Origin: Demequina sp. NBRC 110052
Lineage (GTDB): Bacteria; Actinomycetota; Actinomycetes; Actinomycetales; Demequinaceae
Assembly: GCF_002090075.1 (NCBI RefSeq)
Contig: NZ_BBRI01000003.1
Span: forward strand, 248,001 to 312,000
Reading direction: 5' to 3'
Length of the DNA: 64,000 bases
Position 1 is the stretch's first letter. Every line of letters starts with the position of its first letter. Positions 570-43,513 of the stretch are shown here, piece after piece. The position numbers and the translations under genes were made by a program. The notes beneath the pieces were generated by a model. That model saw nothing but the letters and a program-made list of their open reading frames with translations, did no database searches and had not been told where the DNA came from.

Positions 570-614
570 GCGTCGGGCCTGCGTCCGATGCGGGAGCCCT
601 CACAAGCCCGACGC
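570..614. repeat. inverted pair of the GCCCGACGC 9-mer behind tatB
   Basis: GCGTCGGGC at 570-578 and its exact reverse complement at 606-614 flank a 27-nt loop, in the spacer between the end of tatB and the start of trpS. It could fold in the tatB transcript as a weak terminator. The same 9-mer recurs in other spacers of this window. Confidence 0.5.
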
Positions 615-632
615 AGCGGCCGGGCACGAGGA

Positions 633-962
633 TTACGTCGCGTCGGGGTCGAAGGGCGCGGTCGCGCCTGGCTCCGGGCCCGAGGATACGCGGGGGCGCG
701 GAGCCGGGGAAGGCTCGTCCTCTTCGGCAAGCGCGTCGCGCACGATGCGGCGGGGGTCGTACTGGCGGGGGTCGTACTGGCGCAGGTCGACATCGGGGCC
801 GACCTCGCGCTTGAGGGCCTCCTTGCCCTGCAGCGCGAGGTCGCGCCCCTGCCGGATGAGCCTGCGCAGCTGGCGCAGGTACTCCGGGAGTCGCTCCGGT
901 CCGATGACCACCACCGCGACCACGATGAGGATCACCAGCTCCGTGCTGTTGATGTCGAACAC
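633..962 (-). CDS. tatB: Sec-independent protein translocase subunit TatB
   Basis: Twin-arginine translocase component that recognises folded, signal-peptide-bearing substrates with TatC at the cytoplasmic membrane. The 109-residue protein has one N-terminal membrane helix (about residues 8-22), the GPERLPEYL hinge, an amphipathic helix to about residue 50, and an acidic, proline-rich disordered tail. The GTG start (960-962) lies 17 nt after htrA. It also has its own CACAAT hexamer 6 nt upstream, so a leaderless internal transcript is possible. The position directly after htrA matches the sigE-rseA-htrA-tatB order known from mycobacteria, and favours TatB over TatA. Confidence 0.85.
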   Translation of the reverse strand: MFDINSTELVILIVVAVVVIGPERLPEYLRQLRRLIRQGRDLALQGKEALKREVGPDVDLRQYDPRQYDPRRIVRDALAEEDEPSPAPRPRVSSGPEPGATAPFDPDAT

Positions 963-979
963 GGACCTATTGTGTCGTG

Positions 980-2506
980 TTACTCGTCGTCTTCGGAACC
1001 AGGCGGGTTGGGACGGCCTCCGCCGGAGCCCGAGCCGTCGTCGTCCGTGGAGCCGTCGTCCGCGAACGTGACGTCGTCCGAGGCGGCGAGTGTCACGACC
1101 ACATCGCGATCGGTGTCGCCGTCGCTGAGGGTCAGGGTCACGTCGTCGCCTGGCGCGAGCGCACGGATGGCCACCACGAGCTCGTCGACCTGAGTCACGG
1201 GTCGGCCGTCGATCGCGGTGATGACGTCGCCGGGCTGGATGCCCGCGAGATCCGCAGGGCCTCCCGCGACGACGCCGGTCTCGTCGTCCGCGACCTTGAT
1301 GCCCTCGCCGGTGTAGTTGCCGTCGAGCAGCACGCCGATCACGGGGTATGTGGCGACGCCGTTGGCGATGAGCTCCTCCGCGGTGCGGCGGGCCTGGTTC
1401 GACGTGATCGCGAAGCCGAGTCCGATGGAACCTGTGCCGCTGGTCGCGCCGGAGAGCGTCGCGATCGCGGAGTTGATGCCGATGACCTCGCCCTGCGCGT
1501 TGAGCAGCGGGCCGCCGGAGTTGCCGGGGTTGATAGCCGCGTCGGTCTGGATCGCGTCGATGAACGCGGTGGAGGTCGAATCCGAGGTGGTGACGGGGCG
1601 GTGCAGCGCCGAGACGATGCCGGTCGTGACCGTCGACTCGAGCCCCAGCGGGGAACCGACCGCGACCACGCCCTCACCCACGACGACCTCGTCGGAGTCG
1701 GCGAGCACCAGCGGGGTCAGGCCGGTGCGGTCGATCTTGACGACCGCGAGGTCGTACTCGACGGACGTGCCGACGACGGTGCCCTCGTACTCCGAGCCGT
1801 CGTACATGACGACGTTGACGGTGCCGTCAGAGTCCGCGACGACATGCGCGTTGGTGAGCAGGTAGCCGTCCTCGCGGATGACGAAGCCTGAGCCCGTGGA
1901 AGCGACCTGGCCGCCGCTCAGCACCTCGAGCTGCACGACCGAGGGAGTCACGGCCGCGGCGATGTCGACGACGTCGATCGCGCTGCTCGCGTTCGACGAC
2001 GTGTTCGTGATCGACGACGTGGGCAGGCTCGCAGATGAGCCGCCCTGGTCATCATTGAGGGACGAGTACAGGTAGGCGCCTCCGAAGCCGGCGCCGCCGC
2101 CCAGGATGAGCGCGCCGGCGGCGATGAACGCCACCGTGCTCGTACGCACGCGCCCTACGGGCGGCTGCGGGGCGGCCGCCTGTGGCGCGCTCGCGTACTG
2201 CTCCGGCGGCGCGGCGTGAGCGACGGGCGGCTCGGCGGACGTGGCCTGGTCGGCGGGAACGCCCGACGCGGGAGCGTCCCACGGCGAGGCGGTGGGCAAC
2301 GGCTCGGTGTCGTGAGCGACGTCGTGGCCGGCGGAGGGCGCGGGACGGTCGGTCTCCGCCGCGGCGGAGCCGGCGGCGGGCTCGTCCTCGCGACGCTCGA
2401 CCGCGCCGGCGGTGACGGGGACGGAGCCCGAAGGCGGCGCGAACGGGGCCTGGGCCTCGCCGTCTGCGGGCACGCCGGAGTCAGGGGTGTGGGGGGTGTC
2501 GGTCAT
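980..2506 (-). CDS. htrA: membrane-anchored HtrA/DegP-type serine protease with PDZ domain
   Basis: Cell-envelope quality-control protease. Of 508 residues, 1-120 are a Pro/Ala/Glu-rich cytoplasmic tail, about 122-145 a single membrane helix, then a short Ser/Thr/Asn linker. The trypsin-like domain carries the catalytic triad His221 (TNAHVV), Asp252 (YDLAVVK) and Ser330 (GNSGGPL). One PDZ domain follows (about 390-475) and a Gly/Asp-rich tail. It lies 17 nt downstream of the anti-sigma gene and is probably cotranscribed with sigE. In mycobacteria the SigE-controlled HtrA acts in envelope stress; the same role is inferred here. Confidence 0.93.
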   Translation of the reverse strand: MTDTPHTPDSGVPADGEAQAPFAPPSGSVPVTAGAVERREDEPAAGSAAAETDRPAPSAGHDVAHDTEPLPTASPWDAPASGVPADQATSAEPPVAHAAPPEQYASAPQAAAPQPPVGRVRTSTVAFIAAGALILGGGAGFGGAYLYSSLNDDQGGSSASLPTSSITNTSSNASSAIDVVDIAAAVTPSVVQLEVLSGGQVASTGSGFVIREDGYLLTNAHVVADSDGTVNVVMYDGSEYEGTVVGTSVEYDLAVVKIDRTGLTPLVLADSDEVVVGEGVVAVGSPLGLESTVTTGIVSALHRPVTTSDSTSTAFIDAIQTDAAINPGNSGGPLLNAQGEVIGINSAIATLSGATSGTGSIGLGFAITSNQARRTAEELIANGVATYPVIGVLLDGNYTGEGIKVADDETGVVAGGPADLAGIQPGDVITAIDGRPVTQVDELVVAIRALAPGDDVTLTLSDGDTDRDVVVTLAASDDVTFADDGSTDDDGSGSGGGRPNPPGSEDDE

Positions 2507-2523
2507 GGGAGAACGGATCTCTT

Positions 2524-3956: not shown

Positions 3957-3981
3957 CGCTCGGCCTCCTTCACGCTCGGTG

Positions 3982-4008
3982 AACGTCGTGCACTGCATCC
4001 ATGTTCCC
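3982..4008 (-). promoter_or_regulatory. ECF-type autoregulatory promoter of sigE
   Basis: On the minus strand GGGAAC (4003-4008) and CGTT (3982-3985) are separated by 17 nt. This fits the GGAAC/CGTT pattern recognised by SigE/SigH-type ECF factors. It lies about 26 nt before the sigE start codon, so SigE probably drives its own operon. Confidence 0.6.
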
Positions 4009-4099
4009 ATGGGCCCCAGACGAGCGCCACGGTCCAGGGGCCTCTCTGCGGGAACTCTCAGGTTGCTTGCCGATACGATGCCCCTGAAGAGGAGGTGCC

Positions 4100-4732: not shown

Positions 4733-4747
4733 CGCGCGGCCCAAGGG

Positions 4748-4915: not shown

Positions 4916-5044
4916 CGTGTGCAACTCCTTGGCAGATGTGCGGCCACGCGGCGCGCGGCACTGGAGACATTCTACGCGGCGCGCACGAGCGGCCCCAAAT
5001 CTCACACACGCCCGACGCTGGAGCGGGCGACCGCAAGGCTCGCC

Positions 5045-5814: not shown

Positions 5815-6945
5815 TCAGGACGTGAGCCAGGCCTCCAGGCCCGCACGCACGTCGCGGATCTGGCCGACGGGGCAGCGCTCGTCGTCGGCGTGGGCGAGCT
5901 CCGGGTCGCCGGGGCCGTAGTTCACGGCGGGGATGCCGAGCGCTCCGAAGCGCGCGACGTCCGTCCAGCCGAGCTTCGCACGCGGCGGCTCCACGCCGGT
6001 GGCCTCGACTGCGGCGGCGAACGACTGGGCGAGCGGCGCGTCGAGCCCGGGCCGGCACGCGTGTGCGAGATCCGTCCACTCGATCACGTACCCGGTCGTC
6101 GACACCTCAGGCGCCTCGTCGCTCGGCGGCGGCTCCGCGAGCGCCGCGTTCACGAACCGCTCGACGTTGGCCTGTGCCTGCTCGAGCGTCCAGAACGGAC
6201 TGAAGCGGTAGTTGAGGGTCACGGTCGCGCGGTCAGGGATGACGTTGCCTGCGATGCCGCCCGTGATCCCCACAGCGTTGAGCCCCTCGCGATACTTCAG
6301 CCCGTCGACCTCGACGGTCGCCGCCTCGTAGTCCGCGAGCGCCTGCAGCAGTGGCGCGAGACGGTGGATCGCGTCGATGCCCTTCCACGACCGCGCGGAG
6401 TGCGCGGCCTTGCCGAGCACTGTCACGTCGACGCGCAGCGTGCCGTTGCATCCGCCCTCGATCACGCCCCCGGTCGGCTCGCCGAGCACCGCGAAGTCGG
6501 CCTCGAGCAAGTCCGGGCGCTCGCGCGAGACGAACCCGAGCCCGTTGCGCGTCTCCTCGACTTCCTCCTGGTCGTAGAAGACCCAGGTGACGTCGCGCGT
6601 CGGGCGCTCGAGCGAGGCCGCGAGCGAGAGCAGGACGGCGACGCCCGCCTTCATGTCGACTGCTCCCCTGCCCCACAGCGTGGAGCGGCCCTCGTCCCAC
6701 CAGCCGGGGACGTTGCCGGCGATCGGCACGGTGTCGAGGTGCCCGGCGACGACGACGCGCTCGGCGAGCCCCAGCGTCGTCCGGGCCACGATGTTGTTGC
6801 CCAGGCGCGTGACCTCCAGGTGCGCGCACGCTCGCAGCGCAACCTCCACCTGATCCGCGATCTCGCGCTCGTCGCCTGAGACGGACGGGATGTCGATAAG
6901 TGCCTTGGCGAGGTCCTCCACGGGGAGGGCGAGGTCGAGGGTCAT
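5815..6945 (-). CDS. dapE: succinyl-diaminopimelate desuccinylase
   Basis: M20 metallohydrolase of 376 residues that removes succinate from N-succinyl-LL-diaminopimelate, a late step of lysine and peptidoglycan precursor synthesis. Zinc ligands and catalytic residues are visible: His69 and Asp71 (GHLDTVP), Asp97 (GAVDMKAG), Glu127/Glu128 (YDQEEVE), then GEPTGG and the dimerisation insert. The start is supported by a TAGCCT -10 (6952-6957) 6 nt before the ATG and no Shine-Dalgarno, that is, a leaderless message. It diverges from dapD; the start codons are only 40 nt apart. Confidence 0.93.
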   Translation of the reverse strand: MTLDLALPVEDLAKALIDIPSVSGDEREIADQVEVALRACAHLEVTRLGNNIVARTTLGLAERVVVAGHLDTVPIAGNVPGWWDEGRSTLWGRGAVDMKAGVAVLLSLAASLERPTRDVTWVFYDQEEVEETRNGLGFVSRERPDLLEADFAVLGEPTGGVIEGGCNGTLRVDVTVLGKAAHSARSWKGIDAIHRLAPLLQALADYEAATVEVDGLKYREGLNAVGITGGIAGNVIPDRATVTLNYRFSPFWTLEQAQANVERFVNAALAEPPPSDEAPEVSTTGYVIEWTDLAHACRPGLDAPLAQSFAAAVEATGVEPPRAKLGWTDVARFGALGIPAVNYGPGDPELAHADDERCPVGQIRDVRAGLEAWLTS

Positions 6946-6985
6946 GCCGCCAGGCTAGCAACGCGCGCCCCGTAGTCTTGTGGCC

Positions 6986-7933
6986 ATGACTCGCACGGCA
7001 TACGGATACGGACTGGCCACGATCGACTCGGCGGGAACGGTGCTCGACACCTGGTACCCGGCGCCCCTGCTCGGCGACGCGCCGACCGACCTCGCCGCCC
7101 CCGCGGACCTCAAGGCTGCGGAGCGTCGCGATACGTTCCGCGGTGTGAGCGTCGAGCTCGTGTTCACCGAGATCGACATCGACGCGGCGCCGGAGAGCGT
7201 GCCCGACGCGTACCTTCGCCTTCACCTGCTGTCCCACCGCCTCGTGCAGCCGCACGGCGTGAACCTTGAGGGCCTCTTCGGCGTTCTCACCAATGTGGTG
7301 TGGACATCCGAGGGACCATGCGCAGTCGACGACTTCGAGGGCGTGCGTGCGCGCATGCGTGCGACGGGCAAGCACGTCACCGTGTTCGGCGTGGACAAGT
7401 TCCCGCGCATGGTCGACTACGTGGTGCCCTCCGGCGTGCGCATCGCCGATGCCGACCGGGTGCGCCTCGGCGCCCACCTGGCGGAGGGGACGACGGTCAT
7501 GCACGAGGGCTTCGTGAACTTCAATGCGGGCACGCTCGGCGTCAGCATGGTCGAGGGACGCATCTCCGCCGGCGTGGTCGTGGGTGACGGGTCCGACGTG
7601 GGCGGCGGCGCCTCCATCATGGGCACCCTCTCCGGCGGCGGCAAGCACGTCATCTCGATCGGGGAGCGTTCGCTGCTCGGCGCGAACTCGGGCCTGGGCA
7701 TCCCCCTGGGCGACGACTGCATCGTCGAGGCCGGCCTCTACGTCACCGCAGGCTCCAAGGTGCTGCTCGTGGGCCAGACCGACGACGAGGGCAACCCGAT
7801 CTACGTGAAGGCGCGCGACCTGGCCGGCCAGCACGGCATCCTGTTCCGCCGCAACTCCGTCACGGGCGCGCTCGAGGCCGTCCAGCGTCAGGGCAAGGGC
7901 GTGGAGCTCAACGCGGCCCTGCACGCCAACTGA
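6986..7933 (+). CDS. dapD: 2,3,4,5-tetrahydropyridine-2,6-dicarboxylate N-succinyltransferase
   Basis: Catalyses the succinyl-CoA-dependent first step of the succinylase branch of diaminopimelate synthesis. The 315 residues have the actinobacterial DapD layout: an N-terminal alpha/beta domain, then a left-handed beta-helix of hexapeptide turns ([18 protein letters not shown] through [19 protein letters not shown]). I use ATG 6986 rather than the in-frame GTG at 6980, because TAGTCT (6973-6978) lies 7 nt before it, which suits a leaderless start. It is divergent from dapE and overlaps the next gene as TGATG. Confidence 0.94.
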
Positions 7934-8826
7934 TGGCGCGCCGCCGCCGGCGAGGCGGGGGCGTCGCAGCGTTCCTCATCTTCGCAGCGGTGGCGACCGC
8001 AGGAGTGATCTGGGGGCCGGAGCTGTGGGAACGGCACGGCGACCGCCTCTCGACTCAGCGGTGCACCGTGAGCTTCGACGGCGAGTCCGACACGCTCACG
8101 GCCGAGCAGGCCGACAACGCCGCGCTCATCGCCGCGCGCTCCGCCGCGAGGGGGCTGAGGGCGCGGGCGGCCACGATCGGCATCGCGACCGCCATCCAGG
8201 AGTCCGGCCTGCGCAACATCGACTACGGCGACCGCGACTCGCTGGGCCTGTTCCAGCAGCGCCCCTCGCAGGGCTGGGGAACGGTCGAGGAGGTCATGGA
8301 TCCCTGGCACGCGGCCGACGCGTTCTACGCCGGCCTCGTCAAGGTGAGCGGCTGGGAGGACGCCGAGATCACGGTGGCCGCGCAGGCCGTCCAGCGCAGT
8401 GGCTTCCCCGAGGCGTACGCCGACCACGAGCCGGAGGCACGGCTGTGGGCGACGGGCCTGCGCGGGTATGGCGGCCCCGCCGCCGTCACGTGCGACATCT
8501 CGACGCCCGACGCCTCGACCCCCGCCGCGTACCTCGCGCGCCTGACCGCGGACTTCGGGGAGGGCATGTACCAGGTGGCCGTCACGGGGATCGGGGACGC
8601 GCAGCGGATCGACGTCACCGCGCTCGACGGCACCGAGGTGACCCGAGATCAGTTCGCCGCATGGGCGGTGGCGACAGCGAGCTCCACCGGCGCGATCGCA
8701 GTCACGACCTCAGAGAGCACCTGGACTGTCGCGGACGGGATGGTCGCCGAAGGCGTTCCCGAACTCGGCGCAGCTGTGCGCATCGAGATCCGCGCGGCCG
8801 AGGCTCCGGCATCGCCTCGCGAGTGA
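7933..8826 (+). CDS. membrane-anchored lysozyme-like protein, function unproven
   Basis: 297 residues: an Arg-rich start, one membrane helix or uncleaved signal (about 10-28), then a domain with ATAIQESGLRNIDYGDRDSL and LFQQRPSQGWG. Glu90 in QESG followed by the GLFQQRP stretch resembles the catalytic region of lysozyme-fold lytic enzymes. Proteins with this block are common in actinobacteria and usually left uncharacterised. Its ATG overlaps the dapD stop (TGATG), so it is translationally coupled to a peptidoglycan-precursor gene. A role in wall turnover is plausible inference; the C-terminal 110 residues are not recognised. Confidence 0.6.
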   Translation: MARRRRRGGGVAAFLIFAAVATAGVIWGPELWERHGDRLSTQRCTVSFDGESDTLTAEQADNAALIAARSAARGLRARAATIGIATAIQESGLRNIDYGDRDSLGLFQQRPSQGWGTVEEVMDPWHAADAFYAGLVKVSGWEDAEITVAAQAVQRSGFPEAYADHEPEARLWATGLRGYGGPAAVTCDISTPDASTPAAYLARLTADFGEGMYQVAVTGIGDAQRIDVTALDGTEVTRDQFAAWAVATASSTGAIAVTTSESTWTVADGMVAEGVPELGAAVRIEIRAAEAPASPRE

Positions 8827-10220: not shown

Positions 10221-11342
10221 TTACCCACCGTTTGCGAGGCGGTGAACCGCGGCCGCGACCCTCTCGTCGGTCGCAGTCAGCGCGACGCGCACATGACGCC
10301 GCGCGGCCTCACCGTAGAACGCCCCCGGCGCCACCACGATGCCCCGCTCAGCGAGGAAGGCCAGGCTATCCCAGCAGTCCTCGTCGCGGGAAGACCACAG
10401 GTACAGGCCCGCGTCCGAGGCGTCGATGTGGAAGCCCGCAGCCTCGAGGGCCGGCCGCAACGCATCCCTGCGCGCACGGTAGACCTCCCGCTGGGCGTCC
10501 ACGTGCGCGTCATCAGCGAGCGCCGCCGCCATCGCCGCCTGCACGGGGCCCGGCATGATCAGTCCCGCGTGCTTGCGCACCTCGACCAGCGGCGCGATCA
10601 GCGCGGGATCGCCCGCGACGAACGCTGCCCGGTAGCCGGCGAGGTTCGACTGCTTCGACAGCGAGTAGACCGACAGCAGCCCCTCGTGGCTGCCACCGCA
10701 CACCTCGGGATCCAGGATCGAGGGCACTCCCGCGCTCGCGTACGGCTCGCTCCACGCGAGCTCCGCGTAGCACTCGTCCGAGGCGACCACGGCGCCGATC
10801 GCGCGTGCCGCCTCCACGATCTCGCGCAGCTGCTCGCGCGAGGCCACCGCGCCGGTCGGGTTGGACGGCGAGTTCACCCACACCAGCCGGACCGACGCGT
10901 CCCCCTCCCACTCGGCCACGGCGTCGGCCGGGCGCGGGGTCGCCCCTGCGAGGCGGGCGCCGACGTCATACGTGGGGTACGCGGCTGCGGGGTGCACGAC
11001 GGTGTCGCCCTCGCCCAGCCCCAGAAGGGCGGGCAGCAGCGCGACGAGCTCCTTGGACCCGACGGTCGGTAGGACCGCGGCGGGATCCACGTCAGGCACG
11101 CCACGGCGTCGGGCATACCAGGCCGCCACGGCCTCCCTCAGCGAGGCGGGCCCCCAGGTCGTCGGATAGCCGGGCGAGTCCGCAGCGGCGATGAGCGCCT
11201 CCCGGACGACCGCGGGCGTGGGATCGACGGGCGTGCCGACCGAGAGGTCAACCACCCCGTCGGGGTGCTCGGCCGCGCGCTCGCGATACGGCACGAGCGA
11301 ATCCCACGGGAAGTCAGGCAGCGCGCCCGGGAACAGCCCCAT
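10221..11342 (-). CDS. dapC: N-succinyldiaminopimelate aminotransferase
   Basis: Fold-type I PLP aminotransferase of 373 residues. NSPSNPTG (157-164), ASDECYAEL and SLSKQSN with Schiff-base Lys230 are the cofactor site. It begins 3 nt after fdxA. The ferredoxin-then-DapC order is the same as Rv1177/Rv1178 in M. tuberculosis, and dapD and dapE nearby support the DapC assignment over a generic aspartate aminotransferase. It supplies the transamination between DapD and DapE. Actinobacterial DapC proteins can be paralogous with ArgD, so substrate is inferred from synteny. Confidence 0.88.
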   Translation of the reverse strand: MGLFPGALPDFPWDSLVPYRERAAEHPDGVVDLSVGTPVDPTPAVVREALIAAADSPGYPTTWGPASLREAVAAWYARRRGVPDVDPAAVLPTVGSKELVALLPALLGLGEGDTVVHPAAAYPTYDVGARLAGATPRPADAVAEWEGDASVRLVWVNSPSNPTGAVASREQLREIVEAARAIGAVVASDECYAELAWSEPYASAGVPSILDPEVCGGSHEGLLSVYSLSKQSNLAGYRAAFVAGDPALIAPLVEVRKHAGLIMPGPVQAAMAAALADDAHVDAQREVYRARRDALRPALEAAGFHIDASDAGLYLWSSRDEDCWDSLAFLAERGIVVAPGAFYGEAARRHVRVALTATDERVAAAVHRLANGG

Positions 11343-11777: not shown

Positions 11778-11786
11778 GCCCGACGC
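11778..11786 (+). repeat. GCCCGACGC 9-mer after vanW
   Basis: Exact copy of the recurrent spacer 9-mer (here followed by TG), 6 nt beyond the stop codon of the VanW gene. No partner arm is close, so it is a single copy. Confidence 0.6.
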
Positions 11787-11791: not shown

Positions 11792-14032
11792 TCAGCCGTC
11801 CTCAGACACGCACTTGATCGCGTTGTCAGCCTTGTACGTCCAGCGGAAGCTCTCATCCTTCACCTGCTCGCCCTCCAGGAACACCTGGCGGTAGTTGGTG
11901 ATCGTGAAGCCCGGCTGGCCGGGCCCCTTCGCCTCACAGTTCGCGGCCGTCACCTCAGTCACGCCCGGCTGCCGATAGTTCGTCCTGTCCGAGGCCTGGG
12001 TCTCGACCGTGTAGTACGGCGTGGACCACAGGTCGACGTGCAGGCGCCCGTTCTCGACGTAGCTGTTGAAGATCACCGCGTACGGAGTGTCGTTCGTGAA
12101 CTCGACGTTGATCTGGTCCCCGTACAGCGTGGACTCGCGTCCCGCCGGATAGCGAGGGAACCACACGCTGTGGGGACGGAAGCGCTCGATGTCGTAGCCC
12201 GCGAAGTACGCCGCGTTGTACGTGGTCGTCGCCATCTGCGACAGGCCACCGCCGATGCCCTGGGTCAGCACGCCGTCCACGATCACATGCGCATCGGCGT
12301 AGCCCTCCTCGACCGTGATCGGCGACAGCGTCTTGTAGAGGTCGAACTGACCGCCCGGCGCGAGCACCGTGCCCGCGATGTCCGCGGCCGCGGTCGTGAG
12401 GTTGCGCGTGCGGATGTACTCGTTCGTGAGCGGCGTGTCGAACGACGAGATGATCGTGCGGAAGTCTTCGGCGCCAGCCGGCATCACGGGCTCGGCGACC
12501 GTGAACGGAATCTCTGCGGAGTGGTCACCCGTCGCGGCATCCGCGACCGCGTCTCCCAGTGCTTCCCCGTCGACCACCGTGCCCGGCTCGCCGTCGTCGA
12601 TGACGATCTGGTGGGCCGCGTCGAACGACACCGTCCCTGGCTTGGACTCCACGACCAGCTCAGGGTGGTCCGCCATCAACGTCGCGGCGAGCTCCACGCC
12701 ATCGAGGCTCAGCTCATAGGCCCCGGCGACCACCGACACCGAGGCGGCATCCGCGATCTGCTCCCCGGAGATCTCATACTCGCCGACCTCTGCGGTGACG
12801 GTCGTGGAACTCGCGAACGCCCCAGCATTGAGCTCATCCGCGAACGCCTGCGCATCATCCACCGTCAGCTCAGGCGACTCGTGCGAGACCGGCAGGGCGA
12901 TCTCGCCCGCGGGCCACGCGGCGAGGATGGCGTCACGCGCCGAGGTCGGGTCCACCACCGTGGACATCGCACCCTCATGCGCCACCGCAGCCCCGTCCTT
13001 GACGGTCACGCGCGCATCCGTGGCCTCGCGGCTCAGCACCGTCGCGGCGTCGCGCGTCGCCGTGTCGAGCGCGACGTCCGCCACTTCCAGCACCGGCTCG
13101 ATCTCGTCGATGCCGACGATGTGGTCCCACAGTCGCAGCGGGCTGAGCGTGAAACCGGTGACCTGGGCCACCGTCGCCTCCGCGTCCACCTGCAGACCCA
13201 GGTCATCGGGGTACACCACCTGCGAGGCAAGACCTGCGCTCAACGCCACCGCATTCGCGTTCGCGTCGTCCGCCACGGGATCGAGCGCCTCAAGTGCCTC
13301 AGATGACGACATGCCTCCCACGGCGACGCCGAGCGCCTCACCGCCGCGCGGCACCAGATCCGCGAGCAGCGATGCCGCCGCCACGTAGGCGAGGCCCAGG
13401 ATCACGAGCACGAGCACCAGGACCCGGCCGACGCGCGAAGACCTTTCAGGCTCCGGCGCAGGGCGGTTCGTGAGGAACTCGGGCAACGGCTCCTCGTCGG
13501 GGCGTCCGAGCTCCGCGTAGCGGCTCTCGGCAGGCTCGGGCTCCGGTTCGGGTTCGGCTTCCGGCTCCGGTTCGGGTTCGGCTTCCGGTTCCGGTTCGGG
13601 CTCAGGCTCCGGTTCAGGCTCCGTATCCGGCTCCGCCTCGTCATCGACGCCCTCGACGCCCTCGACGCCCTCGACGTCCTCGACGTCCTCGACGTCCTCG
13701 ACGTCCTCGACGTCAGGCTCGACGACCGCAACCGCATCCGTCTCGAGCCCTGCGTCGAACGGGACGACGACCGCGCCGTCATCCTCGCGTGCGGCACCGG
13801 TGTCAGGCGTCGCCTCGGCGGGGCGTTTCACCGGCGCGACGGGGGGCATCGCCATAGTGCGCGGCGCGCGCCGGGGCCTCGCGACCGGGCTCGAGCCAGC
13901 GTCGGGCGTGTCCCCTCCGGACGTTGCGGGAGCGGCCGCGCTGGCCCGCAGCCTGCGATGGGATACGGACCTGCGACGTGCGGCGAGCTCCGCCTGAGCG
14001 ATCTCGCGCTCGAGCCTGCGCCTACGCGACAT
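11792..14032 (-). CDS. VanW-family cell-wall protein with repetitive acidic stalk
   Basis: 746 residues. An Arg-rich cytoplasmic start is followed by a low-complexity region: VED/VEG triplets at 107-130 and Glu-Pro repeats at about 137-168. One membrane helix (202-224) leads to an outside portion with two repeats of a putative peptidoglycan-binding domain (about 230-520), and a VanW domain (about 531-660; FDTPLTNEYIRTRNLTTAA, GGGLSQMATTTYNAAYFAG). VanW was named for a vancomycin-resistance accessory gene, but chromosomal copies are common and their function is unknown; resistance should not be inferred. The ATG overlaps the upstream gene by 11 nt. Confidence 0.85.
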   Translation of the reverse strand: MSRRRRLEREIAQAELAARRRSVSHRRLRASAAAPATSGGDTPDAGSSPVARPRRAPRTMAMPPVAPVKRPAEATPDTGAAREDDGAVVVPFDAGLETDAVAVVEPDVEDVEDVEDVEDVEGVEGVEGVDDEAEPDTEPEPEPEPEPEPEAEPEPEPEAEPEPEPEPAESRYAELGRPDEEPLPEFLTNRPAPEPERSSRVGRVLVLVLVILGLAYVAAASLLADLVPRGGEALGVAVGGMSSSEALEALDPVADDANANAVALSAGLASQVVYPDDLGLQVDAEATVAQVTGFTLSPLRLWDHIVGIDEIEPVLEVADVALDTATRDAATVLSREATDARVTVKDGAAVAHEGAMSTVVDPTSARDAILAAWPAGEIALPVSHESPELTVDDAQAFADELNAGAFASSTTVTAEVGEYEISGEQIADAASVSVVAGAYELSLDGVELAATLMADHPELVVESKPGTVSFDAAHQIVIDDGEPGTVVDGEALGDAVADAATGDHSAEIPFTVAEPVMPAGAEDFRTIISSFDTPLTNEYIRTRNLTTAAADIAGTVLAPGGQFDLYKTLSPITVEEGYADAHVIVDGVLTQGIGGGLSQMATTTYNAAYFAGYDIERFRPHSVWFPRYPAGRESTLYGDQINVEFTNDTPYAVIFNSYVENGRLHVDLWSTPYYTVETQASDRTNYRQPGVTEVTAANCEAKGPGQPGFTITNYRQVFLEGEQVKDESFRWTYKADNAIKCVSEDG
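13529..13624 (-). repeat. Glu-Pro coding repeat in vanW
   Basis: A run of six-base GAGCCG-like units, interrupted by GCC/GAA variants, codes for alternating Glu-Pro with occasional Ala. It forms a stiff, strongly acidic stretch just before the membrane helix and is a likely site of length variation. Confidence 0.8.
13644..13715. repeat. 9-bp tandem repeat (eight units) in vanW
   Basis: Eight head-to-tail 9-bp units: three of TCGACGCCC, four of TCGACGTCC and one ending TCA. They encode the VEG/VED triplets of the acidic segment. The near-perfect identity points to recent slippage expansion. Confidence 0.9.
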
Positions 14033-16420: not shown

Positions 16421-16429
16421 GCCCGACGC
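16421..16429 (+). repeat. GCCCGACGC 9-mer upstream of the DUF952 gene
   Basis: Exact copy of the recurrent 9-mer, in the divergent spacer between typA and the DUF952 gene. It ends 5 nt before the CAGGCT -10-like hexamer of the latter. Confidence 0.6.
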
Positions 16430-16818: not shown

Positions 16819-16827
16819 GCCCGACGC
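16819..16827 (+). repeat. GCCCGACGC 9-mer in a convergent spacer
   Basis: Exact copy of the recurrent 9-mer, 10 nt after the DUF952 stop and 10 nt before the stop of the convergent EamA gene. Confidence 0.6.
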
Positions 16828-18501: not shown

Positions 18502-18510
18502 GCGTCGGGC
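18502..18510 (-). repeat. GCCCGACGC 9-mer in a convergent spacer
   Basis: Exact copy (as GCGTCGGGC on the plus strand) between the stops of the convergent CGNR and RamB-like genes. Confidence 0.6.
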
Positions 18511-27420: not shown

Positions 27421-27429
27421 GCCCGACGC
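27421..27429 (+). repeat. GCCCGACGC 9-mer upstream of the small ORF
   Basis: Exact copy of the recurrent 9-mer, ending 6 nt before the TAGCCT -10 (27436-27441) of the 56-residue gene; the distance is the same kind as at 16421-16429. Confidence 0.6.
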
Positions 27430-34356: not shown

Positions 34357-35649
34357 ATGGAGATCGTCATCGGAGCATTCGTCGGCGCCGCGCTGGGCGC
34401 GCTCATCGCGGCGCTCGTGGTGGGGGCGCGCGCCTCAGGCGTCCGCGCTCGCCTCGAATCGGAGGTCGCCGCATCCGCCCGACGCGAGACGGACCTTCGC
34501 GCCGAGCACGAGAGATACGTGGCTCAGTTGCGAGGGGATCACGAGACGCTGCGCGCGCAGTTCCAGGCGCTGTCCTCGGAGGTGCTGGACCGCAGTCAGC
34601 GGACGCTGCTCGCCGCCGCGGAGGAGCGACTGTCGCGGGAGAGGGTTGCGGCGGAGGCCGAATCGGCCAAGCGCGAGCAGGCGGTGCGGCGCCTCGTCGA
34701 ACCGATGACCAAGGCGCTCGACGAGGTGAGGCGTCAGACCACGGAGGCGGACCGCGCACGTGCCCAGTCCCAGGCGCAGCTGTCGGAGCAGGTGCGGCGC
34801 ATGCTCGAGAGCTCGGAGCAGCTGGGCAAGCAGACCGAGAGCCTGCGCAGCGCGCTGCGTCGCCCTGAGGTGAGGGGGCGCTGGGGCGAGCTGCATCTCA
34901 GGCGCGTCGTCGAGGTGGCCGGCCTCGTCAACGGCGTCGACTTCGACGAGCAGTCGTCGGACACGACCGCGGAGGGCGCACGGCTGCGTCCCGACATGAT
35001 CGTCACGCTCGCGGGCGGACGCCGGATCGTGGTGGACGCGAAGACGCCGCTGGACGCGCTGCTCGACATGGATGCGGACCCCGACCACGCGCAGGAGCAC
35101 GCCGAGCGCCACGTGCGGAACGTGAGGCAGCGCGTCAAGGAGCTCAGCTCGAAGGCCTACCGGGAGCAGTTCGGCTCCGCCGTGGACTTCTCCGTGCTCT
35201 TCCTTCCCGCGGAGTCCTTCCTGCAGGTCGCCACCGAGCACGACCCGCACCTGATGACGGACGCGTACGACCAGGGAGTGATCATCGCGACACCCACCGT
35301 GCTCGTGGCGATGTTGCGCACCGTCGCGCACACGTGGAAGGCGGAGGCGCTCGCACAGAACGCGCAGGAGGTCCTGGACACGGGTCAGGAGCTGTACAAG
35401 CGGCTCTCGACCATGGGCGACCACCTTGCGAAGGTCGGCAAGGCGATCGACCAAGCGGGAGAGGCCTACAACCGCACGATCGGGTCGATGGAGCGCAGCG
35501 TCCTGCCGCAAGCCCGCAGGTTCGCGTCGCTGCAGCGGCTCGACGACGCCTTCGAGACGCGCGAGGTCGAGGGGACGGTACGGCAGCTCACCGCGCCGGA
35601 GCTCGTGGAGGGCGGGACGACTGAGGCGGATCCTGACTCAGACGCGTGA
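34357..35649 (+). CDS. rmuC: DNA recombination protein RmuC
   Basis: 430 residues: an N-terminal membrane helix (about 4-25), a long coiled coil (about 30-160; rich in Glu, Arg, Gln and Ala), then the RmuC nuclease-like domain (LRRPEVRGRWGELHLRRVVE, VVDAKTPLDALLDM, PAESFLQVATEHDPHLM). It limits inversions at short inverted repeats in E. coli. CACAGT (34345-34350) stands 6 nt before the ATG, so a leaderless start is possible. Its 3' end converges with ispH, 10 nt apart. Confidence 0.92.
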   Translation: MEIVIGAFVGAALGALIAALVVGARASGVRARLESEVAASARRETDLRAEHERYVAQLRGDHETLRAQFQALSSEVLDRSQRTLLAAAEERLSRERVAAEAESAKREQAVRRLVEPMTKALDEVRRQTTEADRARAQSQAQLSEQVRRMLESSEQLGKQTESLRSALRRPEVRGRWGELHLRRVVEVAGLVNGVDFDEQSSDTTAEGARLRPDMIVTLAGGRRIVVDAKTPLDALLDMDADPDHAQEHAERHVRNVRQRVKELSSKAYREQFGSAVDFSVLFLPAESFLQVATEHDPHLMTDAYDQGVIIATPTVLVAMLRTVAHTWKAEALAQNAQEVLDTGQELYKRLSTMGDHLAKVGKAIDQAGEAYNRTIGSMERSVLPQARRFASLQRLDDAFETREVEGTVRQLTAPELVEGGTTEADPDSDA

Positions 35650-36668: not shown

Positions 36669-38006
36669 GTGAGCGGCGGTGACGGCATCTACGAGGACAA
36701 CGACCGAGGCGCCGCGTCGCTTCCCGGCCGGGACGCCGCGGACGCCGTCGGTGGCGCAGGCGCACCCGTCACACTTCCCGGCACGGCGGCCGAGACCTCG
36801 GCCGATCGCCCGTGGCCGGTGCGGCATCTGAGTCCCAAGATCGGCGAGTACATCGCTCGGATGTCTCCCGTGTGGGTCGAGGGTCAAGTGCTGGGGGTCA
36901 AGCGCTGGCGGGACCTGGTGTTCCTCACACTTCGGGACACCGACGAGAACATGTCGCTGGGCGCGACGCTGCCCGCCGCGGCAGTCGACGCGCTGGGCAC
37001 GCCCCTCGAGGACGGCGCGCGGGTGGTGGTGCACGCCAAGCCGCAGTGGTGGACCAAGTCGGGTTCGCTGCAGATGAAGGGCCGCGAGGTGCGCACGGTG
37101 GGCCTGGGAGATCTGCTCGCGCGGATCGAGCTGCTCAAGGCCGCGCTCGCCGACGAGGGACTGTTCGATCCGGCGCGCAAAGTCCCGCTCCCCTTCCTGC
37201 CGCGCGTGGTGGGACTCGTGTGCGCGACCCAGGGCGACGCGGAGCACGACGTCGTCGAGAACGCTCAGCGGCGCTGGCCCGCGGTGCGGTTCGAGATCCG
37301 TCGCGTGACAGTGCAAGGCCCGCGCGCGGTCCCGGAGGTGCTCGCGGCCGTGCGCGAGCTCGACGCGAAGCCCGAGGTCGAGGTGATCGTCGTCGCCCGC
37401 GGCGGCGGCGCGTTCGAGGACCTGCTCGCATTCAGCGATGAGGAGCTGGTGCGCGCCATCGCGGAAGTGGACACGCCTGTGGTCAGCGCGATCGGGCACG
37501 AGAGAGACTCCCCGCTGCTGGACCTGGTGGCGGACTACCGCGCCTCCACTCCCACCGACGCAGGCAAGCGCATCGTGCCGGACGTCGCGCAGGAGCGCCG
37601 CGAGCTCGAGGGTGCACGCGCGCTCGCCGCAGCGGCGGTCGCGGCCCGCGTGGAGCGCGAGCGCCGAGGCCTCGAGGCATTCCTGACCCGACCTGTGCTC
37701 GCGCATCCGCTGCGCATGCTCGATCCGCATCGCGAGCGCCTCACGAGCACGCGGCGCGCCTCAGGCGAGGCGCTCGTGCGGCTCCTCACCGCGGCCGATG
37801 CCGCAGTGCGTGAACTCACGGCGAGCCTGCGGGCGCTCAGCCCGCAGGCGACGCTCGACCGCGGCTACGCCGTGATCCGCGACGACGCGGGCGCGGTCGT
37901 GCGCGACGCGTCGACCGTCGCGGTGGGCACGCCGCTTCACGTGCGCCTCGCCCGTGGCGAGTTGAAGGCCCAGGTGACCTCGGCGTCAAGCGCGTCGGGC
38001 GGGTAG
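36669..38006 (+). CDS. xseA: exodeoxyribonuclease VII large subunit
   Basis: 445 residues. A 48-residue Gly/Ala/Asp-rich extension, then the OB-fold single-strand-binding domain ([20 protein letters not shown]), the catalytic core ([60 protein letters not shown]), a coiled coil and the C-terminal segment [16 protein letters not shown] 36669 is used; CAGGCT (36656-36661) is 7 nt upstream. Its partner xseB lies downstream but a gene on the opposite strand separates them. Confidence 0.93.
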
Positions 38007-38014
38007 CCGTCTCA

Positions 38015-38023
38015 GCGTCGGGC
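38015..38023 (-). repeat. GCCCGACGC 9-mer in a convergent spacer
   Basis: Exact copy (GCGTCGGGC on plus) between the stops of xseA and the convergent repeat-protein gene. Another copy, at 37992-38000, forms the last codons of xseA; the two are direct repeats 23 nt apart. Confidence 0.6.
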
Positions 38024-38608: not shown

Positions 38609-38878
38609 GTGTCGAAGCCGATTCCCGAAGACGTGGCCGCGCTCAGCTATGAGGAGGCGCGCGACGAGCTCATCGCCATCGTGGCGCGCCTCGAAGGAGG
38701 CAGCGCGACCCTCGACGATTCCCTGGGTCTGTGGGAGCGAGGCGAGGCCCTCGCGGCCCACTGCCAGGCGCTGCTCGACGGCGCCGCGACACGCATCGGC
38801 GAGGCACGCGGTGAGGATCCGGCCGATGCGGGCGTGATCGGCGTCGTGCCCGGCGACGAGGATGAGGAGGAGTCATGA
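38609..38878 (+). CDS. xseB: exodeoxyribonuclease VII small subunit
   Basis: 89 residues with the XseB helical hairpin (SYEEARDELIAIVARLEGGS, SLGLWERGEALAAHCQALLD) and an acidic tail. It packs on the XseA coiled coil to form the active nuclease. The GTG at 38609 is set by TACGGT (38596-38601) 7 nt upstream; an ATG-like start three codons earlier would overlap the promoter. The stop overlaps the kinase start (ATGA, 38875-38878). Confidence 0.92.
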   Translation: MSKPIPEDVAALSYEEARDELIAIVARLEGGSATLDDSLGLWERGEALAAHCQALLDGAATRIGEARGEDPADAGVIGVVPGDEDEEES

Positions 38879-39795
38879 GCCACGCGCTCGTCGTCGGCGA
38901 GGCGCTCGTCGACATCGTGTATCGCGCCGACGGATCCGAGGATCGCGTCCCTGGCGGATCGCCTGCGAACGTCGCGCTCACGCTCGCGCGGCTCGGCCGG
39001 GACGCCGAGCTGCTCACTCACCTGGGCACCGACGAGCCAGGTGCCGCGGTCGCGGCGCATCTCGCCGCGTCGGGCGTCACGCTCGCGCCCGGAAGCACCG
39101 ACGCGGCGCGCACCTCGGCCGCGACTGCCGTGCTCGACGCGGACGGCGCCGCCACCTACGTGTTCGACCTCGCGTGGCATGTGTCGCCAGCGGCGGCGCC
39201 CCGGCCCGCGCCCGCGGTGCTCCACACGGGCTCGATCGCGGCGGTGATCGAGCCCGGCGCGACGGATGTGCGGCGTCTTGCCGCCGAGCTCCGCAGCGAG
39301 GCGACGATCACGTACGACCCGAATGCGCGTCCCGCCCTCATGGGGACCGCCGACGAGGCGCGTCCCGTGATCGAGTCGATGGTGGCGCTGTCAGATGTGG
39401 TGAAGGTCTCGGACGAAGACCTCGCGTGGCTCGCCGAGGGGCAGACGCCCGAAGAGGTGTGCCAGGCCTGGGTCGCGCTCGGCCCGGCGGTCGTGATCGT
39501 CACGCGAGGCGGCGACGGAGCGAGTGCGTTCCTCGCTTCAGGCGAGCGGGTGGACGTGCCCGCCCCCGCGGTCACGGTGGTGGACACCGTCGGCGCCGGC
39601 GACTCCTTCATGGGCGGGCTGATCGACGGACTGTGGTCCGCCGGCCTGCTCGGCGCCTCGCACCGAGACGCGCTGCGCTCCCTGTCCCCCGCGACGCTGA
39701 AGCCCATCCTTGAGCGGTGCGCGCGCATCGCCGCCGTCACGGTCTCGCGCGCGGGTGCCAACCCACCCACCTCCGCGGAGCTCGGCGAGGCCTGA
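38875..39795 (+). CDS. PfkB-family carbohydrate kinase, fructokinase-like
   Basis: 306-residue ribokinase-fold sugar kinase. The N-terminal signature [15 protein letters not shown] and the C-terminal [18 protein letters not shown], with catalytic Asp, are intact; [12 protein letters not shown] is shared with fructokinases. Likely substrate is fructose or a related sugar, but PfkB specificity is not safely read from sequence. Translationally coupled to xseB by a 4-nt overlap. Confidence 0.85.
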
Positions 39796-39863
39796 CCCCC
39801 GAGGGGCTTCCCGGGAGCTGGGCGCTGGTCGCCACCGTCGGTGCGTCCTGTAAGAATGGCGCC

Positions 39864-41252: not shown

Positions 41253-41280
41253 GCGCGCGAGCGGTGATGCGCACCGGGCG

Positions 41281-41312
41281 CGGGACCTAGGTCCCGACGC
41301 GCCGCGTAGAAT
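41281..41312 (+). promoter_or_regulatory. ndh promoter with 16-bp palindromic (DosR-like) operator
   Basis: A perfect 16-bp palindrome, CGGGACCTAGGTCCCG, occupies 41281-41296. A TAGAAT -10 follows at 41307-41312, so the palindrome covers the -35 position. GGGAC-N4-GTCCC is the core of the DosR/DevR box known from mycobacteria. The predicted leader before ndh is about 83 nt. Confidence 0.6.
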
Positions 41313-41401
41313 TGCGCACATCACCACGCACGGCCGCGGGACGGCTGCGTGGGCGGAACAACCACGGGCAGGTCCCTGGTTGTCATCCGCAGGAGGTTCC
41401 C

Positions 41402-42715
41402 ATGTCTCGCACCCGAGTCCTCATCCTGGGCGGCGGCTACGTCGGCCTGTTCACCGCCCTCACCCTCAAGCGCAAGGCGCGCGGCACCGTCGACATCACG
41501 CTGCTCGACCGCCGCCCCTACATGACGTACGCGCCGTTCCTGCCGGAGGCGGGCGCGGGCTCCATCGAGCCGCGCCACGCCGTGGTGCCGCTGCGGCGCG
41601 AGCTCAAGGGCGTCAAGGTGCTCCAGGGCAAGGTGACCGGGATCCGTCACGCTGACCGCACCGTCACGGCCGCGACCGACATCGGCGACGAACTGAGCCT
41701 CGAGTACGACGAACTCGTCATCGCGCTCGGCTCCGTGTCGCGCACGCTCCCGATTCCGGGACTCGCGGACTTCGCCATCGGCTTCAAGTACGTCGAGGAG
41801 GCCTCGGCGGTGCGCAACCGCGTGCTGGGCCGCATCGCGCGCGCCGCGACCACCACCGACCCCGACCTTCGCAAGCGCCTGCTGACGTTCGTGTTCGTCG
41901 GGGGCGGCTTCGCGGGGGTCGAGGCGTTCGCCGAAACCGAGGACATGGCGCGGGCCGCACTGCGGTACTACCCCGAGCTGTCCGACGAGGATCTCCACTT
42001 CGTCATGGTCGAGGCCATGGGCCGCATCCTCCCCGAGATGGGTCCCGACATGGGCGACTACACCGTCAAGGAGCTCGAGAGGCGCGGCATGCGCGTCCTG
42101 CTCGAGACACGACTCGAGGGCTGCGAGAACGGCCACGTGAAGCTGTCCAACGGCGAGGAGTTCGAAGCGGACACCGTCGTGTGGACCGCAGGGGTGAGGC
42201 CCGCGCCGGTGCTCGCCGAGTCGGACCTGCCGCTCGGCCCCAAGGGACACGTGAGCGCCTCCGCGACCTTGCAGGTCGTCACCGAGGACGGCGAGGTCGT
42301 GCCGGGTGTGTGGGCGGCAGGCGACTGCGCTCAGGTCCCCAACCTCGTCGAGGGCGAGGGTGACTGGTGCGCCCCCTCCGCGCAGCACGCGGTGCGTCAG
42401 GCGCGTCACCTGGGCGCCAATCTCGCCGCTCACCTCGCGGGACGCGAGCTGAAGCAGTACAAGCACAAGCACCTGGGGCTCGTCGCGTCGCTCGGCCTGA
42501 ACAAGGGCGTCGCCTCCACGATGGGCATCAAGCTGCGCGGCTGGCCCGCGTGGGTCATGCACCGCACGTACCACCTGCTGCAGATCCCCACCTTCAACCG
42601 CAAGGCCCGGGTCGCGCTCGACTGGACGACCGCACTGTTCTTCCGCCGCGACATGGTCTCCATGGGGCGCCTCCAGGAGCCGCGTCGGGCCTTCGAGGAG
42701 GCCGCGCGCAGCTGA
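41402..42715 (+). CDS. ndh: type II NADH dehydrogenase (NDH-2)
   Basis: Membrane-associated, non-proton-pumping NADH:quinone oxidoreductase. 437 residues with the FAD-binding GGGYVGLFTAL (9-19), the NADH-binding VFVGGGFAGVEAFAE (about 165-180), VVWTAGVRP, and WAAGDCAQVPN for FAD; a C-terminal amphipathic helix near residues 385-410 would bind the membrane. AGGAGG is 5 nt before the ATG. Its promoter carries a DosR-like palindrome, which suggests oxygen or redox control. Confidence 0.9.
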   Translation: MSRTRVLILGGGYVGLFTALTLKRKARGTVDITLLDRRPYMTYAPFLPEAGAGSIEPRHAVVPLRRELKGVKVLQGKVTGIRHADRTVTAATDIGDELSLEYDELVIALGSVSRTLPIPGLADFAIGFKYVEEASAVRNRVLGRIARAATTTDPDLRKRLLTFVFVGGGFAGVEAFAETEDMARAALRYYPELSDEDLHFVMVEAMGRILPEMGPDMGDYTVKELERRGMRVLLETRLEGCENGHVKLSNGEEFEADTVVWTAGVRPAPVLAESDLPLGPKGHVSASATLQVVTEDGEVVPGVWAAGDCAQVPNLVEGEGDWCAPSAQHAVRQARHLGANLAAHLAGRELKQYKHKHLGLVASLGLNKGVASTMGIKLRGWPAWVMHRTYHLLQIPTFNRKARVALDWTTALFFRRDMVSMGRLQEPRRAFEEAARS

Positions 42716-42748
42716 GCGCCGCAGCGACCGGCGTGAGGACGCTCTCGG

Positions 42749-43420
42749 CTAGGCCCTGGTCACCCACACGGCGTCGGTGGCGGAACGCCCCAGGGTGATG
42801 GCGTGACCGGCGTCGTCGACGAGTTCGACGGCACCGGAGAACGGCGCACCTGGCTTGAGGGACAGCACGGCGCCGATGTGCACGCCCTGATGCGCGAAGA
42901 ACTTGAGCAGCTCGGGGTCGTCGTCGGAGATGCGCTCGACCCTCACCCGCGCGGGCGGCACGACCTCGGTGAGCAGGTGCGCGTCGGGCGCGTCGAGCAC
43001 GCCCTCCGCGCTCGGGATCGGGTCGCCGTGCGGGTCGCGTGAGGGGTGGCCCAGGCGCTGGTCGATGCGGTCGACCATGAAGTCGGACACGGCGTGCTCG
43101 AGCGTCTCGGCTTCGTCGTGCACCTGATCCCAGCGGTAGCCGAGCATCTCCACGAGGAACGTCTCGATGAGGCGGTGCCTGCGCACCATGGCGACGGCAT
43201 AGGCGCGACCTCGCGTGGTGAGTTCAACGGAGCCGTACGGAGTGTGCGCGAGCAGGCCCTGCTCAGAGAGCCGCCGCACCGCGTCGGACACGGTGGACTT
43301 GCCGACCCCTACCTTCTCCGCGAGCGCGGTCGGCGTCACGGGCGCGTCGGTCCACTCCTGGAGTCCCCACACGGCCTTCAGGTAGTTCTGGGCGCTGGAC
43401 GACAGCTCGGAGACCGACAC
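42749..43420 (-). CDS. mntR: manganese-responsive regulator MntR (DtxR family)
   Basis: 223 residues: winged helix (PTALAEKVGVGKSTVSDAVR), dimer domain with metal ligands, and a C-terminal SH3/FeoA-like domain. Offset by three from IdeR numbering, His82, Glu86, His101, Glu108 and His109 match the known ligands, while the iron-type Cys102 is replaced by Glu105. That favours manganese sensing. The start is GTG with TAGCCT (43427-43432) 6 nt upstream, hence leaderless. It sits beside the heme operon and iron importer but would not itself be the iron regulator. Confidence 0.85.
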   Translation of the reverse strand: MSVSELSSSAQNYLKAVWGLQEWTDAPVTPTALAEKVGVGKSTVSDAVRRLSEQGLLAHTPYGSVELTTRGRAYAVAMVRRHRLIETFLVEMLGYRWDQVHDEAETLEHAVSDFMVDRIDQRLGHPSRDPHGDPIPSAEGVLDAPDAHLLTEVVPPARVRVERISDDDPELLKFFAHQGVHIGAVLSLKPGAPFSGAVELVDDAGHAITLGRSATDAVWVTRA

Positions 43421-43482
43421 GGCGCAAGGCTACCAAGCGGTCGGCGGCAAACCCGGGGCCGCGCACGGCAGCACGGTGCGAC

Positions 43483-43513
43483 GCGTCGGGCGGCGGTTCT
43501 GCCCGCCCGACGC
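43483..43513. terminator. hemH terminator built from two GCCCGACGC copies
   Basis: GCGTCGGGCGG (43483-43493) and its reverse complement (43503-43513) form an 11-bp stem with a 9-nt loop, starting 10 nt after the hemH stop. Each arm contains an exact copy of the recurrent 9-mer. Confidence 0.7.

Follow-up and report, generated by a model that had tools for sequence, protein, structure and literature searches.

A nine-base word with lineage-specific spellings in Demequina genomes: a candidate DNA uptake sequence with dialects

Background

Demequina are soil and marine bacteria. The window analysed here is a 64-kb stretch (positions 248001-312000 of contig 3) of one Demequina genome (G000 below, 2.61 Mb), in which a dapE-like gene, xseA, hemH and their neighbours are accompanied by many exact copies of a nine-base word, GCCCGACGC. 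A preliminary description of the window had noticed that the word is concentrated in intergenic spacers and had suggested that it could be a DNA uptake sequence, a REP-like repeat or a protein-binding element. Uptake sequences, short tags by which certain bacteria recognise DNA of their own kind and select it for import, are familiar mainly from two Gram-negative families. Here we follow the word, and related words, from the window to the genus, and consider what they might be.

Results

The word in the window

Counted on both strands, GCCCGACGC is present 29 times in the window (Table 1), compared with a mean of 6.2 and a maximum of 14 in 100 dinucleotide shuffles. All 16 coordinates named in the preliminary description hold the exact word. 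Its 11 spacer copies are spacer copies according to our own gene calls too, and the copy at 13899 brings their number to 12 of 29; the latter falls within an open reading frame (ORF) at 11792-14032 if a further start is used. It had also been claimed that most spacer copies lie within about 30 nt after a stop codon. This holds for 8 of the 11, which are at most 31 nt from a stop (the exceptions are 570, 16421 and 27421). Two copies, 37992 and 52156, do occupy the last codons of genes, xseA (a name taken from NCBIfam) and the gene ending at 52175. Both inverted pairs fold: 43483/43505 gives a 12-bp stem 9 nt after hemH (folding z -2.85) and 570/606 a long stem (z -2.97).

Table 1. Exact copies of the word in the window, with strand and location
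Word	Position	Strand	Location
GCCCGACGC	570..578	-	spacer; inverted partner of 606
GCCCGACGC	606..614	+	spacer; 18 nt after stop
GCCCGACGC	2261..2269	+	within gene 980-2506
GCCCGACGC	5010..5018	+	spacer; 26 nt after stop
GCCCGACGC	6597..6605	-	within dapE-like gene
GCCCGACGC	7201..7209	+	within gene 6980-7933
GCCCGACGC	8505..8513	+	within gene 7933-8826
GCCCGACGC	11106..11114	-	within gene 10221-11342
GCCCGACGC	11778..11786	+	spacer; 5 nt after stop
GCCCGACGC	13899..13907	-	spacer by own gene call; genic with further start
GCCCGACGC	16421..16429	+	spacer; 17 nt before start
GCCCGACGC	16819..16827	+	spacer, convergent genes
GCCCGACGC	18502..18510	-	spacer, convergent genes
GCCCGACGC	19458..19466	+	within gene 18520-19926
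GCCCGACGC	19529..19537	+	within gene 18520-19926
GCCCGACGC	21215..21223	-	within gene 20078-21940
GCCCGACGC	27421..27429	+	spacer
GCCCGACGC	34477..34485	+	within gene 34357-35649
GCCCGACGC	37992..38000	-	last codons of xseA
GCCCGACGC	38015..38023	-	spacer, convergent genes
GCCCGACGC	39067..39075	-	within gene 38875-39795
GCCCGACGC	42682..42690	-	within gene 41402-42715
GCCCGACGC	42981..42989	-	within gene 42749-43420
GCCCGACGC	43483..43491	-	hairpin after hemH
GCCCGACGC	43505..43513	+	hairpin after hemH
GCCCGACGC	45966..45974	+	within gene 45369-46733
GCCCGACGC	46294..46302	-	within gene 45369-46733
GCCCGACGC	46413..46421	+	within gene 45369-46733
GCCCGACGC	52156..52164	-	last codons of gene 51348-52175

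Abundance in genes and spacers

The whole of G000 contains 1,101 copies of GCCCGACGC (561:540 by strand), about one per 2.4 kb, against 146 copies of the reversed word. Finer comparisons were made on 464 kb of this genome, the window plus 20 sample stretches, with genes called by a home-made finder (89% coding). In this sample GCCCGACGC is the most over-represented 9-mer: 175 copies are seen where Markov models of order 5 and order 3 expect 58 and 43. Spacers hold 63 of them in 49.5 kb, or 1.27/kb, and models trained on spacers expect 3-5. The remaining 112 lie in 414 kb of genes (0.27/kb), and synonymous codon shuffles yield 39, or 49 with the following base held constant (100 runs of each kind, never more than 64). 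The word is therefore enriched in both compartments, by a factor of about 13 to 20 in spacers and of about 2.3 to 2.9 in genes. Hence the uneven placement noticed in the window is a property of the larger sample as well, and neither equal density nor a composition- or codon-matched model accounts for it.

The word is present in all sampled parts of G000, at 2 to 15 copies per 20 kb and without obvious plan. Two stretches (L009 and L010, at G000:C2:100-120 kb and 180-200 kb) are word-poor, with 2 copies per 20 kb against about 8 genome-wide; they are perhaps recently acquired DNA.

Spellings across the genus

We counted words, forward plus reverse, in 41 species-level Demequina genomes drawn from a larger group. 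Three spellings are strong, a term for which we set cut-offs of at least 900 copies for GGACGATGC and at least 700 for GGCCGATGC. GGACGATGC has 929-1,864 copies in 16 of the genomes and 49-275 in the other 25, GGCCGATGC has 718-2,018 in 14 and 68-664 in the other 27, and GCCCGACGC has 1,101 in G000, 1,206 in G009 and 48-370 in the other 39. A further spelling, GGCCGACGC, exceeds its reversed form about tenfold in G003 (685 vs 65) and G046 (497 vs 54) and is the top spacer word of G003 (9 in 11.3 kb); it is a weaker case, since counts in the remaining genomes lie between 84 and 741 (highest in G041, 741 vs 132). By count, GGACGACGC is highest in G041 (521) and G001 (502), at 3.1 and 2.6 times the reversed word. 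Its ratios are higher, about 4, in G003, G012 and G046, and so GGACGACGC is only a possible fifth dialect.

Thus, by our cut-offs, a leading word can be named in 34 of the 41 genomes; the seven others are G001, G005, G007, G012, G017, G020 and G041. Two of these have a moderate excess of GGCCGATGC over its reversed form, below the cut-off (584 vs 54 in G020, 409 vs 46 in G017), and GGCCGATGC is in excess also in several GGACGATGC genomes (664 copies in G021, 488 in G051, 487 in G011, 465 in G002, 447 in G019). Given this excess, GGCCGATGC may be the ancestral form, which decays where another spelling has taken over. Most Demequina species, then, carry a lineage-specific spelling of a short tag in about a thousand copies per genome, and the genus-wide counts rule out a peculiarity of a single species.

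Rankings made without a chosen word were carried out twice. When spacer 9-mers were ranked in nine genomes, the word at the top was in several cases a different one of related spelling. In the second, the dialect word ranked fourth or higher among over-represented 9-mers in 8 of 10 genome samples. The same was true of 25 of 34 hemH loci (3-21 kb) from Demequina and its near relatives, and of none of the 46 loci taken from other genera. The pooled spacers of these 34 loci contain the four main words 108 times in 68 kb, those of the 46 non-Demequina loci 14 times in 111 kb. The finder was poorly trained for one genome, G008 (1 training ORF), and for that reason its spacer figures were not used alone. 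Other repeated motifs, around AGTGTCGGTTCTGAG and CACCTGACGGGTG and unrelated to the word, occur in spacers of G001 (L135-L139, L224-L229).

Genic copies exceed synonymous shuffles (40 each) in other genomes too: 136 vs 41 in G009, 154 vs 18 in G004 and G052 together, 77 vs 9 in G010 and G013 together, and 27 vs 8 in G003. The excess is weak for three words in G001 and G041 together (62 vs 44, 59 vs 37, 13 vs 10). With the excess over synonymous shuffles in several Demequina genomes and over Markov models in G000, composition or codon bias is rejected as the cause.

Shape of the motif, mismatches and strand

The spellings have the common form GNNCGAYGC. In aligned spacer copies it is followed on its 3' side by a G-rich block, roughly (T/G)GnGGyCGGG, which is common to those dialect groups that have 10 or more spacer copies and of which genic copies hold parts, more weakly. 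The 5' context is weak, CAC in G000 and CAG or AG in others. The best form in G009 adds T and G after the word, GCCCGACGCTG, so the motifs of the two GCCCGACGC genomes are not quite alike.

A count of one-mismatch variants had been proposed as a check. Exact words far exceed them: spacers of G000 hold 71 exact words where 4.0 are expected and 93 of all 27 one-mismatch words where 74 are; the same figures are 57 vs 1.8 and 45 vs 43 in G009, and 87 vs 1.0 and 35 vs 22 in G004 and G052 together. This bears on the suggestion of a REP-like element, or some other transposed short repeat. A REP element is a palindromic extragenic repeat of tens of bases. Many copies, a richness in spacers and local clusters would suit such a repeat, but the word is non-palindromic, it is found within genes more often than synonymous shuffles allow, its conserved surroundings end by about 20 bp, and one-mismatch forms fall sharply to near background. 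We consider a repeat of this kind extremely unlikely.

A bias of strand or replichore had also been raised as a question. Judged by local GC skew in the sample stretches, the orientation of the word is unbiased in G000 (66:69) and G009 (93:117, p 0.11), as is the whole-genome ratio in G000. Chi-like sites have an orientation tied to replication. A short non-palindromic word found in genes and spacers about once in 2.4 kb does recall a recombination signal of that sort or some other replication-oriented signal, but the balanced orientation and the greater density in spacers than in genes leave such a signal hardly more than a theoretical alternative.

Position relative to genes and to neighbouring words

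In four of five groups, spacer copies are densest in the first 40 nt downstream of a stop codon. Densities after stops, in the 40 nt before starts and in the rest of the spacers are 3.14, 0.57 and 0.84/kb in G000, 2.82, 0.85 and 0.82/kb in G009, 2.05, 0.55 and 0.75/kb in the pooled GGCCGATGC group and 3.88, 2.05 and 2.39/kb in G052; the exception is G004, with 1.08, 0.71 and 2.31/kb. In all five groups the density before starts is at most a hair above that of the remaining spacer, and a promoter or regulator site was rejected on these grounds. The hint that some copies end just before a -10 hexamer is accordingly not general.

Could the words be parts of terminators, amplified by selection for termination? 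The post-stop excess in G000 would agree with this, as would the inverted orientation of 13 of its 18 close word pairs and the good folding of the two pairs in the window. A hairpin at a gene end is indeed what some inverted pairs form, but not the genic copies, which make up 112 of the 175 sampled and exceed synonymous shuffles. Moreover, folding is weaker for the words at 16819 and 38015, which have no partner (z only -0.74 and -1.86), close pairs are mostly direct in G004 (23 of 25) and G052 (18 of 23), and words in G004 are sparser after stops than in the rest of its spacers. Termination would also have no need of a fixed 9-mer that changes with lineage. Termination as the cause of the abundance is therefore very unlikely in our opinion. 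The direct repeats of GGACGATGC in G004 and G052 (L194-L207, L130-L134, L231) are often 15-18, 23-24 or 32-34 bp apart.

Phylogeny and turnover of sites

A tree was built from 3,139 aligned residues of the hemH neighbourhood. It left out one 3.2-kb locus (L056) of 34, and six tips are unlabelled; labels were moved from genomes to named loci via hemH coordinates, those of L057 and L062 resting on 20-kb loci. The 14 GGCCGATGC tips make up a single clade. Fifteen tips labelled GGACGATGC lie in another, together with G000 and two near-wordless species, G001 and T00b26 (G041); within it G000 is sister to D. salsinemoris, G004, T00b26 and G001. The two GGCCGACGC tips share an early clade with G017, G012 and G007. 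G009 branches early on its own, and G020 before all others. Hence GCCCGACGC is common to two distant lineages, and the moderate GGCCGATGC excess of G020 falls outside the main GGCCGATGC clade. The strong spellings are consistent with the species tree if one or more switches are allowed for. The simplest history has GGACGATGC switching to GCCCGACGC on the lineage of G000, and the same core being reached independently in G009.

How far positions are conserved in relatives depends on the dialect. G052 and G004 both use GGACGATGC and are 87% identical in the parts that align. Among 112 words compared (51 unaligned), 42 of the 61 alignable ones are identical, where 28% would be expected (0.867 to the 9th). 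Orthologous spacers hold a word in both genomes in 11 cases, in one only in 4 and 5, and in neither in 42 (p 8e-6), with the same orientation in all 6 unambiguous cases. Between G000 and these two genomes few sites are shared: of 62 words compared with G004, 20 are alignable and 5 of these are still GCCCGACGC there, and of 62 compared with G052, 32 are alignable and 2 are still GCCCGACGC. One of the 20 reads GGACGATGC in G004. A few places hint at replacement of one spelling by another. At the spacer of 38015, 3 of 18 other species have their own spelling in the same orientation (G009 with GCCCGACGC; NBRC 110055 and NBRC 110051 with GGCCGATGC), and at the gene end at 52175, 4 of 19 have GGACGATGC in the same orientation (G004, silvatica, phytophila and soli). 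Site-by-site replacement at orthologous places is not upheld in the wider comparison of G000; for the most part, then, the switch created sites anew.

The HemH encoded in the window has its nearest named matches in Demequina (D. salsinemoris at 90%). On the minus strand of the window, at 46726-49014, is a 762-aa ORF whose HemE match is limited to residues 422-759; this is either a fusion or a start set too far upstream.

Pilus and competence genes

The presence of com and pil genes had been proposed as another check, and G000 has them. Its type IV pilus (T4P) operon encodes PilB, a second T2SSE ATPase in the position of PilT, PilC, a pilin, two further prepilins, a 537-residue protein without family match, and PilM, next to aroC. 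The names pilT, pilD, pilN and pilO were assigned from position, size and weak matches. G000 also encodes comEA (with HHH and SLBB domains), comEC and dprA. ComEC is found in 40 of the 41 Demequina genomes (the exception is 85% complete) and prepilins in all 41. In G040, ComEC carries an inner stop (G040:C1:423579-424363), for which a sequencing error or a real loss is possible, as it is for the ComEC of G009, which is divided between two open frames.

Between G000 and G004, the ATPases are better conserved than the minor prepilins, bar the 227-aa one. Transfer of a receptor between G000 and G009 was considered and rejected: no protein of the T4P operon is closer between these two than between G000 and G004, in a comparison that did not take in comEA, comEC and the fourth prepilin. 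Across the order, 31 of 79 genomes have pili of the PilM type, among them each of the 6 Demequina in that sample, and hence the pilus is not peculiar to Demequina.

Elsewhere, G109, from another family of the order, has a spacer repeat around CCGGTGCCTGACCCCG, whose 9-mers occur 6-9 times in 80 kb (L251-L254), and G025 has about 10 copies in 80 kb of a longer spacer repeat holding GGCGGGATTGCATGA (L235-L238).

Discussion

A probable DNA uptake sequence with dialects

Taken together, an abundant word whose numbers drop at one mismatch, balanced strands, copies in genes as well as enriched in spacers, dialects that are consistent with phylogeny and share a constant flank, and genes for a pilus and competence machinery make up the profile of the DNA uptake sequences (DUS) and uptake signal sequences (USS) of other bacteria. 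REP, Chi, promoter and terminator explanations fit less well. We think it quite likely that GCCCGACGC is the core of a candidate Demequina uptake sequence, in a system with dialects that works like DUS and USS and is unrelated to them in sequence. The suggestion of an uptake sequence made in the preliminary description is thus well supported by these features; as to uptake itself, we infer that the word would promote it, with a pilin as the receptor, and that Demequina would be naturally competent.

If correct, such a system might work as follows. The candidate receptor would be a protein, probably a minor pilin, that sits at the tip or on the surface of the type IV pilus and reads sequence. 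It would bind DNA with the motif of its own species, about 22 bp long, consisting of the 9-bp core and the GnGGyCGGG-like block just downstream. The pilus would retract, ComEA and ComEC would import the DNA, and DprA and RecA would recombine it into the chromosome. The word would spread because fragments bearing it are taken up more often, and would settle at sites of little harm, such as those after stops, in spacers and at permissive codons. Should the specificity of the receptor drift, a new spelling would spread and the old one decay, giving rise to dialects.

Several observations weigh against an uptake sequence. The preference for positions after stops exceeds that reported in PMC1939737 for published uptake words, and the clusters of direct repeats in G004 and G052 are not predicted by an uptake model. 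The GGCCGACGC and GGACGACGC dialects are weak. Few words of G000 coincide with those of its relatives (79% identity), most being in new places, and agreement in orthologous spacers is weak or absent (3/1/11/40 with G052, p 0.047; 1/6/9/27 with G004, p 0.87). Seven of the 41 genomes are without a strong word, yet six of these have ComEC and all have prepilins; G001, for one, has the whole T4P operon and only weak words. The word-rich G009, in turn, has its ComEC in two overlapping open frames (G009:C1:2039413-2040200). No comparable word was found in 80 kb from each of five T4P-bearing actinobacterial genomes of other families, where no 9-mer is prominent in genes and spacers alike, the repeats of G025 and G109 being spacer repeats, while three Demequina controls of the same sample size showed their words; a general link between T4P and such words across the order was therefore rejected. 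Finally, among the papers listed in searches of open-licence literature, titles and starts of abstracts showed no study of DNA uptake or competence in Demequina, so the competence of Demequina is presumed.

The third suggestion, a protein-binding element, deserves a separate comment. The word might be the site of an intracellular protein that binds DNA all over the chromosome, in nucleoid structure, segregation or repair, and whose specificity changed between lineages. A composite motif whose core and flank together span about two turns of the helix would suit a protein, and no sampled part of the genome is without the word. On the other hand, the samples display no pattern of strand or skew, the varying density follows no obvious plan, and such a protein by itself offers no evident route by which some thousand sites could be rewritten when the dialect switches, which makes changes of a whole genome's spelling hard to explain. 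We regard a non-receptor protein of this sort as unlikely.

Coming back to uptake, on balance we favour the view that sequence-specific uptake of self DNA evolved independently in Demequina, as the first such system in a Gram-positive actinobacterium as far as the literature was searched. It would comprise three strong dialects, a fourth of modest strength and possibly a fifth, faint one, a switch of a whole genome from GGACGATGC to GCCCGACGC (G000), a near-loss beside it (G001 and T00b26) and the same core attained twice (G000 and G009). An independent actinobacterial origin would mean that the mechanism can arise beyond the two Gram-negative families, and would provide a second set of dialects. 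With at least 41 species-level genomes, close pairs with different spellings and lineages that seem to be in the middle of a switch or a loss, Demequina makes it possible to test how a thousand words are rewritten in a genome, whether a bias in uptake is enough to drive this and whether dialects limit gene exchange between species. Residues that vary together with the dialect could be sought in the pilin genes.

Comparison with known systems

In open-licence literature we found no earlier description of uptake sequences in actinobacteria or Micrococcus, or of the four main words. Micrococcus luteus is a competent actinobacterium that, like Demequina, has comEA/comEC and a type IV filament (PMC6370729); its pili are of the Flp/Tad kind, whereas Demequina has a T4P operon with PilB, a PilT-like ATPase, PilC and PilM. 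Passages of PMC6370729 on it make no mention of an uptake sequence.

The DUS of Neisseriaceae is a word of about 10 nt in about 900-6,000 copies, associated with a type IV pilus (PMC3630211, PMC6370729) and read by the minor pilin ComP, and its eight dialects track phylogeny (PMC3630211). Demequina resembles it in having a short abundant word, dialects that follow phylogeny and a type IV pilus. The letters are unrelated, and the CTG inner core of DUS (PMC12616744) is in none of the five Demequina 9-mers; Demequina differs further in being a Gram-positive actinobacterial host and in the discontinuous motif with its downstream block. Published uptake words have no orientation bias, and their inverted pairs act as terminators (PMC3630211, PMC1939737, PMC12616744).

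The USS of Pasteurellaceae comes in two types, Hin and Apl, which track phylogeny, and its inverted pairs can double as terminators (PMC12616744). It is like the Demequina motif in its 9-bp core with a weaker downstream flank, its inverted pairs and its phylogeny-tracking dialects (PMC12616744), and in its presence in both genes and spacers (PMC1939737). It is unlike it in its GCGG inner core (PMC12616744), which none of the five Demequina 9-mers contains, and in its flank, which is A/T-rich in USS and G-rich in Demequina, a genus of a different phylum.

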